From assembly GCA_028284905.1 (NCBI GenBank), contig JANQQU010000078.1, forward strand, positions 1 to 57,139: a DNA stretch of 57,139 nucleotides, written 5' to 3'. The DNA comes from Calditrichia bacterium (GTDB lineage: Bacteria; Calditrichota; Calditrichia; RBG-13-44-9; J075). Both the position numbers and the translations under genes were made by a program. Below, one piece after another: positions 131 to 42,946 of this stretch. The stretch's first letter is position 1; every line of letters begins with the position of its first letter. The notes below the pieces were generated by a model. It was given only the letters and a program-made list of their open reading frames with translations, had not been told where the DNA came from and searched no databases.

Positions 131-163
131 CATTTGCCCATTTGAATATTTGCCCATTTACTC
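131..163. repeat. Solo copy of the TTTGCCCATTTG dispersed repeat
   Basis: Bases 131-150 are identical, over 20 bases, to the reverse complement of 48506-48525, the left inverted repeat of the four-helix-bundle cassette. The following bases (TGCCCATTTACTCA) also resemble the outer flank of that repeat. It abuts the 3' end of the minus-strand gene at 162. No four-helix-bundle gene accompanies this copy. Confidence 0.7.
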
Positions 164-521
164 AATACCCAATGTCCGGCAGGTCCTTCCAGCGCGGCTC
201 TGCTTCCGGCTTAAAGTTTTTTGTGGCCATAAAGTTCAGTCCCTGGTGAAAATTCAATTTAAATTTTCCACCCCCGAAATGTTCCAGCAAAAAGTTTTCC
301 GGATCACTGAGCAGCGGCATCATCGTGCTGGCATCATACTTCGCTAAACCTTTAAATCGCACGGAATTATGCCAGGGTTCCTGCACCAGCACCGTCACTG
401 TCGCTTCACTCATGATTTCAATAAAAGCCTGCTGTTGCATTTCCTGACTGGGATCATTGTCACCCAACCGACGCAAATGTTTTAAGACATAATCTTTACA
501 AATTTCCCAGACCCAGTCCAT
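162..521 (-). CDS. Hypothetical protein
   Basis: I do not recognise this protein of about 119 residues. It has no signal peptide and no membrane segment. It has an aromatic N-terminus (start of MDWVWEIC), a central Glu/Gln-rich helical stretch and a Gly-Gly-Gly-Lys turn near residue 85. The ATG at 521 lies 10-11 nt after an AAGGAA ribosome binding site. A TTG two codons upstream (527) is only 4-5 nt from that site and is an alternative start. The gene stands alone on the minus strand and its stop abuts the dispersed repeat at 131-163. Coding status rests on an open frame of usual length with a plausible ribosome binding site. Confidence 0.55.
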   Translation of the reverse strand: MDWVWEICKDYVLKHLRRLGDNDPSQEMQQQAFIEIMSEATVTVLVQEPWHNSVRFKGLAKYDASTMMPLLSDPENFLLEHFGGGKFKLNFHQGLNFMATKNFKPEAEPRWKDLPDIGY

Positions 522-34780: not shown

Positions 34781-34995
34781 AATGCCTCAGGAATCTACTT
34801 TGTGTATTATTTACAATATATATTTGATAAATTTAGCTTCATAAACTGCAAAAAAAAAGCGCGGAAATAAAATCGTGCATAGAAAATTTTGAGTCGCGTT
34901 ACGAAAACCCTCAGCAATTTGCTGCAGTTTGTTTATTAGTTGCAAAAACGCTAAATTTCAGACAGCATACGAATTCTCACCGCTTGCTTGTTGGT

Positions 34996-37900
34996 ATGGA
35001 AATGAAACGGCTAACTTCAATCAAAAATTTACTGGTGAAATCCTGCCAATCCGGCATGCTGACTGTATGTACACTGTTTTTAATTTCTTCCGGTTTTGCA
35101 GATGACCTTCGCCCGCTTTTTAAAGCACCTTATGTTCCCGGCCTTCCACGTGGTATTGTCATTAAAACAATACAGCAGGATCCCACTGGCTTTTTATGGT
35201 TTGGGACGGAAACAGGGCTTTATTCGTACGATGGCTACAACACAACAACTTATCGACATAAGCCTTATGATTCCAACACTTTATCAGCAAACATTATCAG
35301 CTATGTTGCGCCTTTGGAGAATGGGACGCTATGGATTGGCTGTCTGAATTCGGTAATTAATCGATTGGATTTAACCACCGGCAGATTTAGTCATTTCCAA
35401 CATGATCCGAATGATAATTCTACGATTGATGATAATACCCTGATTTATGCAGCCCTGGGAAATTCCGGTACTGAATGGCTGGTAACAGCGAATGGGGTCA
35501 ATAAACTGGAAACAACCCTAACCGCGGCTGGTGAAACAAAAATAATTTTTAGTCACCCGGAAAACAGGTTCCATACTACCCCCTGGCGAAATATTCCCTC
35601 GGAAGTCTGGCGGCAATTATCCCCCGGGCATATATGGAATAATGATAGCAAGCTGAATATTTTTATACCATCTACAGAGGTATTCCATCAACTGGATTTT
35701 TCCGATGTTTTCCCAAATTCAAGTCAAGCGCTCCCTCCGATTCAAACCTATTTTCTCGAACCCGGGCATCATAAATTGTGGGTATTGTCCGGTCATGAAC
35801 TGGCGCAATTGGATTTTCTAACCGGCGAAATACAGCGCTGGCAACTGGATATTATTTTTCCGAGATTTAAAGGCATCACCATCTCCGTAATGCAGGTAGA
35901 TTCCCGACAGGGTGTCTGGTTAACCGCTTCCGCGACCGGGCTTTACCGATTGGATCTAAGTAATAACGAGCTACAACATTTCCGGCAGGATGACATACCG
36001 GGCGGCGTTCTAAACAGTGATCGGGTAACTAAATTATATATTGATCGCAGTCAGCAACTCTGGATTGGCAGCAATGAAGGCTTAAATCTGGTCAATCTCA
36101 ATCGCCCCGGATTTGAACATTATAAACCCTATCCAAATGCGCCCGCTAGCACCAGTGACAATCGGATTGCTGCCGTCGCCGAAGATTTAATGGGGCGAAT
36201 ATGGCTTTCAGCCAATCGCAGGATCCATCGTTTTACCCCTGAGACCAATGAGTTTGAACTGGATCTTCATCAGCAAATCTTTCCCGATTCGCTGGAAAAT
36301 GCCCTGGTAAAAACATTTCTGTTTGACCGAGTGGGCAATAGCTGGTTTGGCACATTGGGCAAACATATTTTTCAGTATAGCCCGGATGGTAACTTCCAAA
36401 TTCTGAAACTCCCCTTCCCCGGCAGGCACCTGGTTCGCTCTGCCCAGGAGTTACCGGATAGCAGCATCCTTTTTGGCGTCGACTGGGATGGCGGTGGTAT
36501 CTTCCAGTATTTTCCGGAGGAAAAAAGACTTGCCGCATATCGCCAAAAAGCGGGAAGCAGCCGCACCATTAGCAGTAATCTTATTTGGAATGCATATCAG
36601 GATAAGAAAGGTCGCCTTTGGGGTTGCACATGGGGTGGTGGGTTAAACCTCTTGATGCCTGGCGATGAAGATTTTTTTCATTATCGTAATGACCCGGAAG
36701 ACCTTGCCAGTATTAGCGATAACTTCGTCACCGGAATTACTGAAACGGAGAATGGGGTCATTTGGTTAACGACCTGGAATGGCGGCATAAACCAGCTAAT
36801 AGATACGACAGCGACCGGAGAATCGGCAAGCCCAGAAGCTTATTATTTTCAGCGATTTACCGAACAGGATGGTTTACCCAACAATGTCACTTCCGGGATT
36901 CTTGAAGATCGCAGCGAAATGCTATGGCTGTTAAATGGCAGCGGCATCAGCCGGTATCGCCCCGAACAAAAACGCTTCGACAATTACAATCTTTTAGATG
37001 GCTTGCAGAGCAATAAATTTTTTGCCGGCAGCTGTCTGGAAACCCGTGATGGGAAAATGTATTTCGGTGGCACCAATGGATTCAATGCCTTCTACCCAGA
37101 TAGCATTCAGCGAAATGTTAACGTGCCGCCTGTCGTGTTAACAGCATTTAAAGTTTTTGAGCAAGACGTCGCCCTGGATACGGTCATTACCTATAAAAAA
37201 CAGTTAATTATCCCCTATTCGGACAATTTTTTCTCTTTCGAATTCGCTGCGCTTGATTATACTCAATCGAGTGAAAACATATATCGTTACCAACTGAAGG
37301 GATTTGACAAAAAGTGGGTCAACAGCGGCAATCGTCGATTGGCAATTTATACCGATGTTCCACCGGGCAGATACGCTTTCCAGGTTGTTGGTGCGAACAA
37401 TGATGGTCTTTGGAATGAAGCAGGCACGACGCTAACATTGATTATTACCCCGCCTTTTTGGCAAACCGGCTGGGCCTATGCTATTTACCTGGTTGCTTTG
37501 GTTGGTCTATTTTTTAGCGGCAAATGGGTGGTAAAAAATTGGCGGTCGCTCATTAACCTGCGCGCGCGTCGTATTTCCCGCTATAAGCTATTGAACCTTC
37601 TCGGAAAAGGCGGAATGGGTGAAGTTTATAAAGCTATTGATACCGGCGATTCGAGTATCGTTGCAATTAAACTGCTGAGCGAAGCATTGCTGGAAGATCC
37701 GGAAAATCATCGGCGCTTTCACAATGAAGGCCGCCTGCTCGCGGGATTTTCCCATCCGAATATTGTAAAAGTACTGGAAATCGGGGAGTCCGAGAAACAA
37801 AGCTATATTGCGATGGAATATCTCAGTGGGGGCACCTTAAAAGAATTCCTTCAGGAAAACCATCCCCTTCCGGAGGCCCAGGTTCAAAACTTGCTGCTGC

Positions 37901-38370
37901 GAATTGCTGAGGGCATTGCGGAAATCCACCGGCACAATATTATTCACCGCGATATTAAGACCGGAAATATTATGCTTGATGAATCCGAAAAGATACGCAT
38001 CATGGATTTTGGTCTTTCCAAATCCTCCCTGGTAACAACAATGACTAACCTGGGCACAGTGATGGGCACGTTAGGATATGTCGCGCCGGAACAGATTACC
38101 GGCACCCGCATAGATCATCGGGTAGATATATTCTCTTTCGGGGTTACACTATATGAAATGCTGCTGAATAAACTGCCCTTCTCCGGTGAAAACGAAATGG
38201 CCCTGATTCATGCGATATTCAATTATACCCCGCCTCCGTTATCGGAATTAAGGCCGGATTTATCTTCCGACTGGCACTTTATTCTGGAAAAATGTTTAGC
38301 AAAAAATCCTGAACAGCGCTTCCAAACGAGCGAGGAAATTATTGAAGCAATCAAAGCAGTTAAACTCTAA
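34996..38370 (+). CDS. Beta-propeller (Reg_prop/Y_Y_Y) sensor fused to a Ser/Thr protein kinase
   Basis: A protein of about 1124 residues. A signal peptide (to about 35) leads into two seven-bladed propellers of Reg_prop repeats (to about 730; for example DPTGFLWFGTETGLYSYDG). A Y_Y_Y domain (about 740-820) and one membrane helix (about 825-846) follow. The cytoplasmic Hanks-type kinase (about 861-1124) has a glycine loop GKGGMGEVY, VAIK lysine, HRDIKTGN, DFG and APE motifs, all intact. The extracellular part is the same as in hybrid two-component systems of Bacteroidota, but here the output is Ser/Thr phosphorylation. The ligand is probably extracellular glycan or peptide. Start: no clear binding site; ATGs at 34996 and 35002 and a TTG at 34984 are possible. 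Confidence 0.9.
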   Translation: MEMKRLTSIKNLLVKSCQSGMLTVCTLFLISSGFADDLRPLFKAPYVPGLPRGIVIKTIQQDPTGFLWFGTETGLYSYDGYNTTTYRHKPYDSNTLSANIISYVAPLENGTLWIGCLNSVINRLDLTTGRFSHFQHDPNDNSTIDDNTLIYAALGNSGTEWLVTANGVNKLETTLTAAGETKIIFSHPENRFHTTPWRNIPSEVWRQLSPGHIWNNDSKLNIFIPSTEVFHQLDFSDVFPNSSQALPPIQTYFLEPGHHKLWVLSGHELAQLDFLTGEIQRWQLDIIFPRFKGITISVMQVDSRQGVWLTASATGLYRLDLSNNELQHFRQDDIPGGVLNSDRVTKLYIDRSQQLWIGSNEGLNLVNLNRPGFEHYKPYPNAPASTSDNRIAAVAEDLMGRIWLSANRRIHRFTPETNEFELDLHQQIFPDSLENALVKTFLFDRVGNSWFGTLGKHIFQYSPDGNFQILKLPFPGRHLVRSAQELPDSSILFGVDWDGGGIFQYFPEEKRLAAYRQKAGSSRTISSNLIWNAYQDKKGRLWGCTWGGGLNLLMPGDEDFFHYRNDPEDLASISDNFVTGITETENGVIWLTTWNGGINQLIDTTATGESASPEAYYFQRFTEQDGLPNNVTSGILEDRSEMLWLLNGSGISRYRPEQKRFDNYNLLDGLQSNKFFAGSCLETRDGKMYFGGTNGFNAFYPDSIQRNVNVPPVVLTAFKVFEQDVALDTVITYKKQLIIPYSDNFFSFEFAALDYTQSSENIYRYQLKGFDKKWVNSGNRRLAIYTDVPPGRYAFQVVGANNDGLWNEAGTTLTLIITPPFWQTGWAYAIYLVALVGLFFSGKWVVKNWRSLINLRARRISRYKLLNLLGKGGMGEVYKAIDTGDSSIVAIKLLSEALLEDPENHRRFHNEGRLLAGFSHPNIVKVLEIGESEKQSYIAMEYLSGGTLKEFLQENHPLPEAQVQNLLLRIAEGIAEIHRHNIIHRDIKTGNIMLDESEKIRIMDFGLSKSSLVTTMTNLGTVMGTLGYVAPEQITGTRIDHRVDIFSFGVTLYEMLLNKLPFSGENEMALIHAIFNYTPPPLSELRPDLSSDWHFILEKCLAKNPEQRFQTSEEIIEAIKAVKL

Positions 38371-40530: not shown

Positions 40531-40539
40531 TTCAAGTTG

Positions 40540-40894
40540 TGGAGACGCCGGGAATCGAACCCGGGTCCGAGAAGGAGTTTGATGGTTCATCTACATGCTT
40601 ATCCGATCGATTAGATTTAACTTATGTCAGGCAGTTCGGCTAGCCCTTCATAAGCGATTCCGGTAAATCGGATTTACACAGACCAGAAAACCATGCAAAT
40701 CGTCCTGCTAATTGCGACGTCTTTCCTTACCCCTAACAGGCCAAGTTTAAGGAAGACGAGCAGCGTAAGTTACGCTGCCAGGGAATAATTATAATCGGCA
40801 TTTAAATAAATGCTCTCACTAATTGCGGGGTAATGAGAAATCCCGGCATGCCGATCCATCCTACTTCACATCCCGTCGAGACCATTTCGTCCCC
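40540..40894 (-). ncRNA. ssrA: Transfer-messenger RNA (tmRNA)
   Basis: About 355 nt. The 5' end GGGGAC pairs with 3' GUCUCC as the acceptor stem, and the T-arm motif GGGTTCGATTCCC lies at the 3' side (40547-40570). The tag frame runs from GCC (about 40801) to TAA: residues ADYNYSLAA, ending in the LAA degradation signal. A hairpin GGCAGCGUAA-CUUACGCUGC covers the stop codon. Pseudoknot 1 (CCGGGA/CCCCG region with CUCAUUA/UAGUGAG) lies 13 nt before the resume codon. CCA is not encoded (ACA follows the stem), so it is added by the CCA enzyme. The tmRNA rescues stalled ribosomes with SmpB. Confidence 0.95.
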
Positions 40895-40941: not shown

Positions 40942-41002
40942 GCCAAACGTTCTTTACATCTATTATATAATAGAACAAGAATAAAAGTTTCCCAAAAACA
41001 AA

Positions 41003-41036
41003 AACTCCTGAAACAAGATCGCTTATTCCAGGAGTT
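41003..41036 (-). terminator. Terminator of the candidate RNA upstream of ssrA
   Basis: On the minus strand AACTCCTG and CAGGAGTT form a stem with an 18-nt loop, followed by TTTGTTTTTGGG. It ends a minus-strand transcript coming from 41244 towards ssrA. Confidence 0.7.
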
Positions 41037-41244
41037 CAAAAAAAACAGGAGTGACTCGCTATGCAGACGTCGGGGGAAAACTTCTGCTTAGCTCAACGCC
41101 ACTTCCTGTCATGGAAACTCAAGGTGGGGGGAACACCTATCAAAGAGTTTCCATTGAGTGTTCACGGTGGGATTCGAACCCATAAATATCAGCTCCCAAA
41201 CGAGCTTCCGAGACTGCTGCCAGTAGGCAGAACTTCGGAAAAGT
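41037..41244 (-). ncRNA. Candidate structured RNA with a T-arm motif (unidentified)
   Basis: Read on the minus strand, five stems occur in series. They are TTCCGA/TCGGAA (41206-41240) enclosing CTGCC/GGCAG; AGCTC/GAGCT with loop GTTTGG (41191-41206); TGGG-TTCGAAT-CCCA, a perfect tRNA T-arm (41168-41182); ATGGAAACTC/GAGTTTCCAT (41111-41154) enclosing AGGTG/CACCT; and GCAGA/TCTGC (about 41064-41088). A terminator follows. No tRNA can be closed: the 3' bases CGTGAAC have no matching 5' acceptor strand. I found no RNase P, 6S or SRP signatures. It could be a novel RNA or a decayed tRNA with long insertions; the GTTTGG loop recalls tRNA-Pro. Confidence 0.45.
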
Positions 41245-41497: not shown

Positions 41498-42946
41498 ATG
41501 TTTGATTTTATTCTGGACTTCACCACCCAACTGGACGGTATGTTATGGGGTATTTATACCATGATTCCATTGCTAGTCGGTACTGGCATCTATCTGACCA
41601 TTAAAACACGTGGTATACAGTTTACCCATCTTGTTCGATCTATTAAACTGATTTTCTCGAAAGAAGCCCGCGAGGGTGAAGGTAAAGGGGATATCTCCCC
41701 GTTTGCAGCGTTAATGACCGCCCTCGCCGCAACCGTGGGTAATGGAAACATCGCCGGCGTGGCAACAGCGATAGCGATTGGTGGTCCCGGTGCCCCGGTC
41801 TGGATGTGGATCGCCGGATTATTCGGTATGGCAACCAAATATGCCGAGGGATTTTTAGGCGTTCATTTTCGTGAAGTTGCCCCGAACGGCACAATGGCCG
41901 GTGGTCCCATGTATTACGTTAAAAACGGCCTGAAGAATAAAAAACTCGGTAGAATTCTCGGTGCAACATTTGCAGTCTGTGGCGTTATCGCCTGTTTGAT
42001 TGGGACCGGAAATATGGCGCAGTCCAATTCGATGACGGCCTCTTTGGCCAATACCATTAATCAATGGATCAACCCGGGTACATCTGCTGCTGTCCAGGCG
42101 CCGGCCTATTACTACTACATCATCGGTGTAATTATCGCGATAATGGTTGGTATGGTCATTATCGGTGGTATCAAAAAGATCGGTGCTGTATCCGAAAAGT
42201 TGGTACCGGGCATGATCGTTTTTTACATCATTTTTGCCTTGATTGTAATTGTCACCAATGCCTCACATATTCCCGATGCGTTTGCGCTCATCTTCAAATC
42301 AGCATTTGGTTTACAACCGCTGGCGGGGGCCGTGCTTGGGCAGGTTGTCTCCAGTGGAGTAAGCCGCGGCTTGCTCTCCAACGAAGCCGGGCTGGGTTCT
42401 GCGGCGATTGCCCAGGGCGCATCTTCTTCGGAAGAACCCACCAACAACGGTTTAATCGCTATGACCGGTGTTTTCATTGATACCATCCTGGTAAATACCA
42501 TGACGACACTGACCATCGTATTAACCGGCGCTTACATCCAAACCCAGGCCTGGCAGGGGCTCGATGCAGAGAATAACATCACCAGTATTCTCGTTACCCA
42601 GCAAGCTTTCGATTCAGTATTTCCCTTCGGTATCGGGGGTGCATTAATTGCTTTCGCCTCTTTCCTGTTTGGATATACCACTTTGATCGGCTGGTCCTAC
42701 TACGGTGAAAAATGTATCGAATATCTTGGTGGCGATAAGGTGATTATGCCTTTCCGTTACACCTTTATCATTTTCCTGTTTGTTGGGGCAATTTTAACCC
42801 CGATTGCCGGCACCAGCCTGAATTACCTCAATATTGTCTGGAATCTCGGTAATATCGGGAATGCCCTAATGGCCTTTCCAAACCTGATCGGCTTGATCTT
42901 CCTGGCCGGGATGGTTGCGAAAGTTACAAAGGAACGTTTAGGCTAA
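41498..42946 (+). CDS. AGCS family sodium:alanine/glycine symporter
   Basis: An inner-membrane symporter of 482 residues with about 11 helices. The family signature GGPGAPVWMWIAGLFGMATKY, the helix GNGNIAGVATAIAIGG and LLSNEAGLGSAAIA are clear. It imports alanine or glycine with Na+. The start ATG follows GAGG by about 8 nt. No glycine riboswitch or other known aptamer is visible in the 250 bases upstream, unlike many AGCS genes. It is monocistronic, with two hairpins downstream. Confidence 0.92.
   Translation: MFDFILDFTTQLDGMLWGIYTMIPLLVGTGIYLTIKTRGIQFTHLVRSIKLIFSKEAREGEGKGDISPFAALMTALAATVGNGNIAGVATAIAIGGPGAPVWMWIAGLFGMATKYAEGFLGVHFREVAPNGTMAGGPMYYVKNGLKNKKLGRILGATFAVCGVIACLIGTGNMAQSNSMTASLANTINQWINPGTSAAVQAPAYYYYIIGVIIAIMVGMVIIGGIKKIGAVSEKLVPGMIVFYIIFALIVIVTNASHIPDAFALIFKSAFGLQPLAGAVLGQVVSSGVSRGLLSNEAGLGSAAIAQGASSSEEPTNNGLIAMTGVFIDTILVNTMTTLTIVLTGAYIQTQAWQGLDAENNITSILVTQQAFDSVFPFGIGGALIAFASFLFGYTTLIGWSYYGEKCIEYLGGDKVIMPFRYTFIIFLFVGAILTPIAGTSLNYLNIVWNLGNIGNALMAFPNLIGLIFLAGMVAKVTKERLG

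Follow-up and report, generated by a model that had tools for sequence, protein, structure and literature searches.

Features of the locus

The window, by which we mean the whole 57,139-nt stretch of DNA that was analysed (genome G000), carries on its minus strand an element at 41003-41244, which lies between ssrA and a divergent gene. The features are as follows; the hairpin coordinates were derived by hand from the sequence and from predicted folds.

40537-40894 (-), ssrA (tmRNA), the downstream neighbour, tag peptide ADYNYSLAA, found by ARAGORN and by the Rfam scan
41002-41045 (-), T-run and intrinsic terminator hairpin, the hairpin itself at 41037-41002
41046-41158 (-), small-RNA body with two C-rich-loop hairpins, matched by models R1 and R3 with 100.8 and 96 bits
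41046-41108 (-), hairpin H2, CCCCC of its apical loop at 41072-41076
41111-41154 (-), hairpin H1, loop UUCCCCC at 41127-41133
41159-41233 (-), decayed tRNA-Lys(CTT) abutting the small RNA, with T-arm at 41182-41168 and a hairpin at 41206-41191
41213-41208, within 41159-41233 (-), weak acceptor-like pairing with the 3' strand in the predicted fold
41498-42946, divergent gene, which from its look we take to be sodium:alanine symporter-like

The folding energy of the region was -96.6 kcal/mol, compared with -68.65 ± 4.89 kcal/mol in 200 shuffles (z -5.7), and the structured RNA claimed in a preliminary description of this DNA is real. The T-arm hairpin TGGG-TTCGAAT-CCCA, the rho-independent terminator and the position upstream of the tmRNA gene in the same direction were all found as described there; the stems are likewise present, but the folds hold six hairpins (41230-41217, 41206-41191, 41182-41168, 41154-41111, 41108-41046 and 41037-41002) and not five consecutive stems. 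The element is an RNA gene in two halves, the C-rich-loop hairpins with their terminator and the remains of a tRNA-Lys(CTT). We found no convincing promoter before the window copy, and TTGC-N17/18-TATATT-like pairs recur upstream of many copies, most of them singly no better than shuffles. Elsewhere in the window, the 1128-aa ORF at 34984-38370 (+) appears by eye to encode a sensor beta-propeller fused to a serine/threonine protein kinase.

Distribution and conserved structure of the RNA

All 40 genomes of the class were searched, a set equal in number to that of the whole phylum. The covariance model R1, built from seven aligned copies (alignment A3), matched 13 of the 40 at E-values up to 0.1 with one strong copy each, and R3, built from all 13 copies, recovered the identical genomes. 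The copies in G007, G008 and G012 were recognised only through the model search, and a weak second match in G010 (contig C206; E 0.0107 with R1 and 0.123 with R3) was left out of the counts. R1 found no match in the other 27 class genomes, in part through missing sequence, and eight of these carry the short form described below. When the search was widened to 385 genomes, under stricter filters which may lose weak matches, R1 matched the same 13 only, and matches of R1 and of the short-form model R2 were confined to genomes of the class. A sequence-pattern scan of named genome contigs returned eight stretches, six of which are in Calditrichota, Calditrichaeota or Calditrichaceae and one of which, under a Deltaproteobacteria label, is on a contig as long as G006:C120 of the class set. 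The stretch from Acidimicrobiia is part of an open frame and is not matched by R1; it was taken as chance. Short DNA matches at G000:C36 and G005:C157 are partial similarity only, and ARAGORN reports no tRNA or tmRNA there.

The anatomy of the RNA is well supported and the evidence for a conserved structure is strong. Changes on both sides of a pair occur at 18 of the 35 pairs in A3 and at 24 of the 35 in the 13-copy alignment A5, where 92.6% of cells are paired as against 35-42% in slid controls; the A3 structure was derived from A3 itself and A5 was fitted to the model, so that both lean towards the structure. None of 500 shuffles reached A5 on any of five measures. In the outer stem of H1 all ten pairs of the 13-copy alignment show both-side changes, and the UUCCCCC columns of loop 1 are 92-100% identical compared with a mean of 76% for paired columns. 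The copies in G001, G005 and G006 have an additional helix within H2. A separate observation concerns the terminator hairpin, which by eye is near-identical in six f1/f2 genomes (CTCCTGA-YGAACGG ... CCGGGARTCAGGAG), with an apparent A/G-rich internal loop and a conservation exceeding what a terminator needs; this form is missing in the window.

Comparison with known RNA families

Against Rfam 15, the only family at or above gathering score in the window is tmRNA, at ssrA, and the element itself matches none; with E-values up to 10 the locus gives weak matches, among which the T-arm is scored as a 15-nt piece of tmRNA (10.9 bits). At the loci of 13 relatives only ssrA and tRNAs are above gathering score. 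Hence the claim of an RNA gene outside the known families stands, with no Rfam match at the element and with conservation in 13 of the 40 class genomes. Its family of C-rich-loop RNAs is absent from Rfam 15 and was found here only in Calditrichota class genomes, and the phylum thereby gains an RNA family that had not been described; a single literature query pairing the words noncoding RNA and Calditrichota returned nothing.

The 6C RNA or B11 sRNA (RF01066) is a family of Actinobacteria which, like the Calditrichota RNA, has two hairpins with C-rich loops. However, it is over its cut-off (gathering score 47 bits) in none of the 40 class genomes, its weak matches all fall off the locus, and it gives no match at the window locus at E-values up to 10. 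The Calditrichota RNA differs further in its phylum and in being linked to tRNA-Lys and often, if not constantly, near ssrA. A 6C or other known Rfam RNA is ruled out by the lack of a match at the locus.

Linkage to tRNA-Lys(CTT) and to ssrA

A tRNA-Lys(CTT) gene lies directly before the RNA in 10 of the 13 genomes (G001, G005-G012 and G016), whether or not ssrA is near. This count includes G006, where the contig starts inside the tRNA and cuts it, and G016, where the model match begins 3 nt later. By ARAGORN, the tRNA is upstream in the same direction in five of the 25 ssrA loci (G005, G009, G010, G011 and G016), and the stretch just behind the relatives' tRNA aligns to window 41046-41158. 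The RNA occurs without an adjoining tRNA-Lys(CTT) in the window genome, G003 and G004, three members of a single family. Neither an anticodon-arm pattern with one mismatch nor BLAST with the intact gene, its matches then passed to ARAGORN, recovered a tRNA-Lys(CTT) from any of the three or from G002, and the gene was recovered from G001, G005 and G017. Because these four assemblies are gapped, absence of the gene from the three carriers is likely but not certain. ARAGORN reports tRNA-Lys(TTT) in G000, G002 and G004, and G003 has a Lys(TTT)-type anticodon arm by pattern match only. The carriers without the tRNA separate in nature the functions of the tRNA and the RNA. At the window element ARAGORN finds no intact tRNA and RF00005 stays below gathering score, and the cloverleaf is intact in relatives. 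The earlier suggestion of a tRNA-Pro-like gene wrecked by insertions was right as to a wrecked tRNA and wrong as to its identity, for the relatives have an intact tRNA-Lys(CTT) at the same place; ARAGORN and these relatives rule out a tRNA-Pro or an intact tRNA in the window.

The link to ssrA is looser. ssrA is over the tmRNA cut-off in 25 of the 40 class genomes and nine of the 13 long forms sit upstream of it. The loci extracted around the RNA in G001, G007, G008 and G012 hold no ssrA, and in G001 and G007 it is on a different contig with no RNA before it, so that adjacency to ssrA, as seen in the window, is not constant. As a side observation, ssrA is over the tmRNA cut-off in none of the three genomes of genus g8 (G008, a single contig, G012 and G014), where the tmRNA may be divergent, two-piece or lost. 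In G016, locus L033 has a match to Acido-Lenti-1 RNA at 154-200 (+), which scores 31 bits against a gathering score of 37 (E 0.0013) and is separated from the C-rich RNA by ssrA.

Relatives searched beside ssrA, as had been proposed, yielded the RNA behind tRNA-Lys(CTT) and also a short form in family f5, which precedes ssrA in eight genomes without a tRNA. In seven f5 loci, from which covariance model R2 was built, it consists of one hairpin, its loop of the UUCCCCC type, and a T-run, and ends 18-33 nt before ssrA. R2 matches nine of the 40 class genomes, namely the seven f5 loci, G025 (also before ssrA) and G016, and the G016 match (E 1.8e-5 in the 40-genome search) falls on H2 of the tRNA-linked form. 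In a search of 22 loci R2 again matched H2, in G016 (E 3e-7), G012 (0.0021), the window (0.0084) and weakly G007 (0.96); the remaining 18 loci, which include the nine further long-form ones, gave no match. Since the R2 matches fall on H2, the short-form hairpin and H2 are probably homologous. Searches with R1 and R2 found neither form in any of the six f6 genomes. At f5 and f6 loci (L022-L027, L029-L032 and L035), ssrA has a tRNA-Gly(GCC) behind it on the same strand, often with Cys(GCA) and Leu(TAA) next in line.

These neighbourhoods bear on two cis-acting explanations. The hairpins might be a trailer, which only ends, protects or processes the tRNA-Lys transcript and has no target in trans, as would suit an RNA that abuts tRNA-Lys(CTT) in 10 of 13 genomes. 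We consider a trailer unlikely, because conservation of the RNA persists in the three genomes that lack the tRNA, the short form occurs with no tRNA in eight, the hairpins are followed by a distinct terminator, and conservation is higher in the loops than in the stems. Alternatively, the hairpin could be a leader or attenuator of ssrA which controls tmRNA supply; its placement close before ssrA in the seven f5 loci, before ssrA in G025 and upstream of it in nine long forms would fit. This seems improbable given the four loci which carry the RNA without ssrA, and the two genomes among them whose ssrA elsewhere has no RNA before it.

The tRNA remains

The window, G003 and G004 each keep a T-arm-like hairpin just before the RNA. 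The stump of G003 folds into a perfect 7-pair stem enclosing one hairpin and the T-arm-like hairpin, and that of G004 into a 5-pair stem with a hairpin and the T-arm, where by eye six of seven acceptor positions are pairable; the G004 stump also gives a subthreshold mascRNA-like match (24.8 bits, gathering score 42.5). The window stump (41159-41233) folds only weakly as tRNA-like. In its minimum-energy fold CCGUGA pairs with UCUCGG (41213-41208) through five pairs around a U-U mismatch, and when the entire region is folded, a rival pairing displaces the T-arm. Thus the 3' acceptor-like strand, which had been said to lack any partner, does have one, although the pairing is weak and within what chance can give. 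Of 300 shuffles, 5 scored as well as the G003 stump, 8 as well as the G004 stump and 26 as well as the window stump, which suggests selection on the stump in G003 and G004; for the window stump the figures do not show it.

Judging from these predicted folds, the stumps of G003 and G004 could possibly act as tRNA mimics in the sense of a handle for RNase P or RNase Z. A precedent is the haloarchaeal t-element, a tRNA-like structure before 5S rRNA, where according to PMC4326828 the following RNA acquires its 5' end when tRNase Z cleaves. The likeness, a tRNA-like fold directly before an RNA, is clear in the predicted folds of G003 and G004 and weak in that of the window, and the t-element differs in being archaeal and in preceding 5S rRNA. 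We tentatively raise the idea, though we doubt it, that three Calditrichota genomes lost the decoding half of tRNA-Lys(CTT) and kept a shrunken acceptor/T-arm fold as a maturation handle. If so, the only job of the stump would be to let tRNA-processing enzymes free the C-rich-loop sRNA, and it would be a bacterial counterpart of the t-element, in a naturally occurring gradation that runs from a complete tRNA-sRNA fusion to an sRNA alone. The tRNA-less carriers offer a ready test of whether the stump survives solely as a processing signal.

The preliminary description had named, as one of two options, a small RNA that mimics tRNA. The small RNA is there, but its conserved part is the two C-rich-loop hairpins behind the tRNA remains. 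A mimic whose stump binds elongation factor or RNase P, with the hairpins as accessories, would agree with the T-arm kept in the window and G004 and with the T-arm-like hairpin and perfect 7-pair acceptor-like stem of G003; it is nevertheless very unlikely, as most carriers have an ordinary tRNA-Lys at that place and the acceptor-like pairing of the window is within chance.

Proposed function

The reading that we lean towards, with somewhat more belief than doubt, is a trans-acting, Hfq-independent C-rich-loop sRNA, which is released from a tRNA-Lys precursor and pairs with G-rich sites near translation starts; we hold a regulatory role, argued from analogy, with moderate confidence. Ancestrally, the RNA would be the 3' part of the tRNA-Lys(CTT) transcript. 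Because the tRNA encodes no CCA, cleavage may occur after the discriminator base, presumably of RNase Z type, and would free an RNA running from an initial CUCA to the terminator; the junction position and the missing CCA are our grounds for a cut at the tRNA end. The two UUCCCCC-type loops would then base-pair, without Hfq, with G-rich segments on or close to the start codons of a restricted set of mRNAs, whose translation would thereby be blocked. In the window lineage, where tRNA-Lys(TTT) is present, the tRNA may have become dispensable and degenerated, the sRNA being retained, and in G003 and G004, doubtfully in the window, the shortened tRNA-like fold could still serve as a processing handle. 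Transcription, processing, targets and mechanism are the parts of this model that we infer. Given the precursor link in most carriers, the RNA level may follow tRNA synthesis. Hfq is over the Pfam cut-off in none of the 40 class genomes, with weak matches inside larger frames in two f5 genomes (G017 and G033). RNase Z-like proteins were found in all 40, over the model cut-off in none.

Release from a tRNA precursor has a precedent in 3'ETS-leuZ, a regulatory RNA that in E. coli and Salmonella derives from the 3' portion of such a precursor; it is described as an Hfq-dependent sponge for other sRNAs, with an RNase E cut 15 nt behind the tRNA (PMC5222698). The Calditrichota RNA differs in that it abuts the tRNA directly and has its own conserved structure. 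For the loops, the analogy with known C-rich-loop sRNAs, which pair with G-rich sites, suggests that they should pair with G runs. As reported in PMC3771888, sX13 of Xanthomonas acts independently of Hfq to repress messages that carry G-rich motifs close to their start; compared by description only, it shares the C-rich apical loops and differs in having three stem-loops and, apparently, a stand-alone gene. Either of the two C-rich loops of B11 was reported usable against a message with a six-G tract, and the discussion of that paper states that no RNA chaperone has been identified in mycobacteria (PMC10470900). That the near-invariant C-rich loops on changing stems are a decoy, which titrates an RNA-binding protein instead of pairing with mRNA, is highly improbable, as the C-rich-loop sRNAs described in those two reports (PMC3771888, PMC10470900) depend on G-rich RNA sites. 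We know of no candidate protein.

For candidate targets of the proposed sRNA, a census of 269 start regions, from 400 kb plus the window with crude ORF calls at the first ATG, found GGGGG in 4 of 269 compared with 0 of 269 controls, which is compatible with few targets for the loops. The sampled start regions have AGGAG-type ribosome sites; this disfavours a global anti-Shine-Dalgarno role and makes a limited target set likelier.
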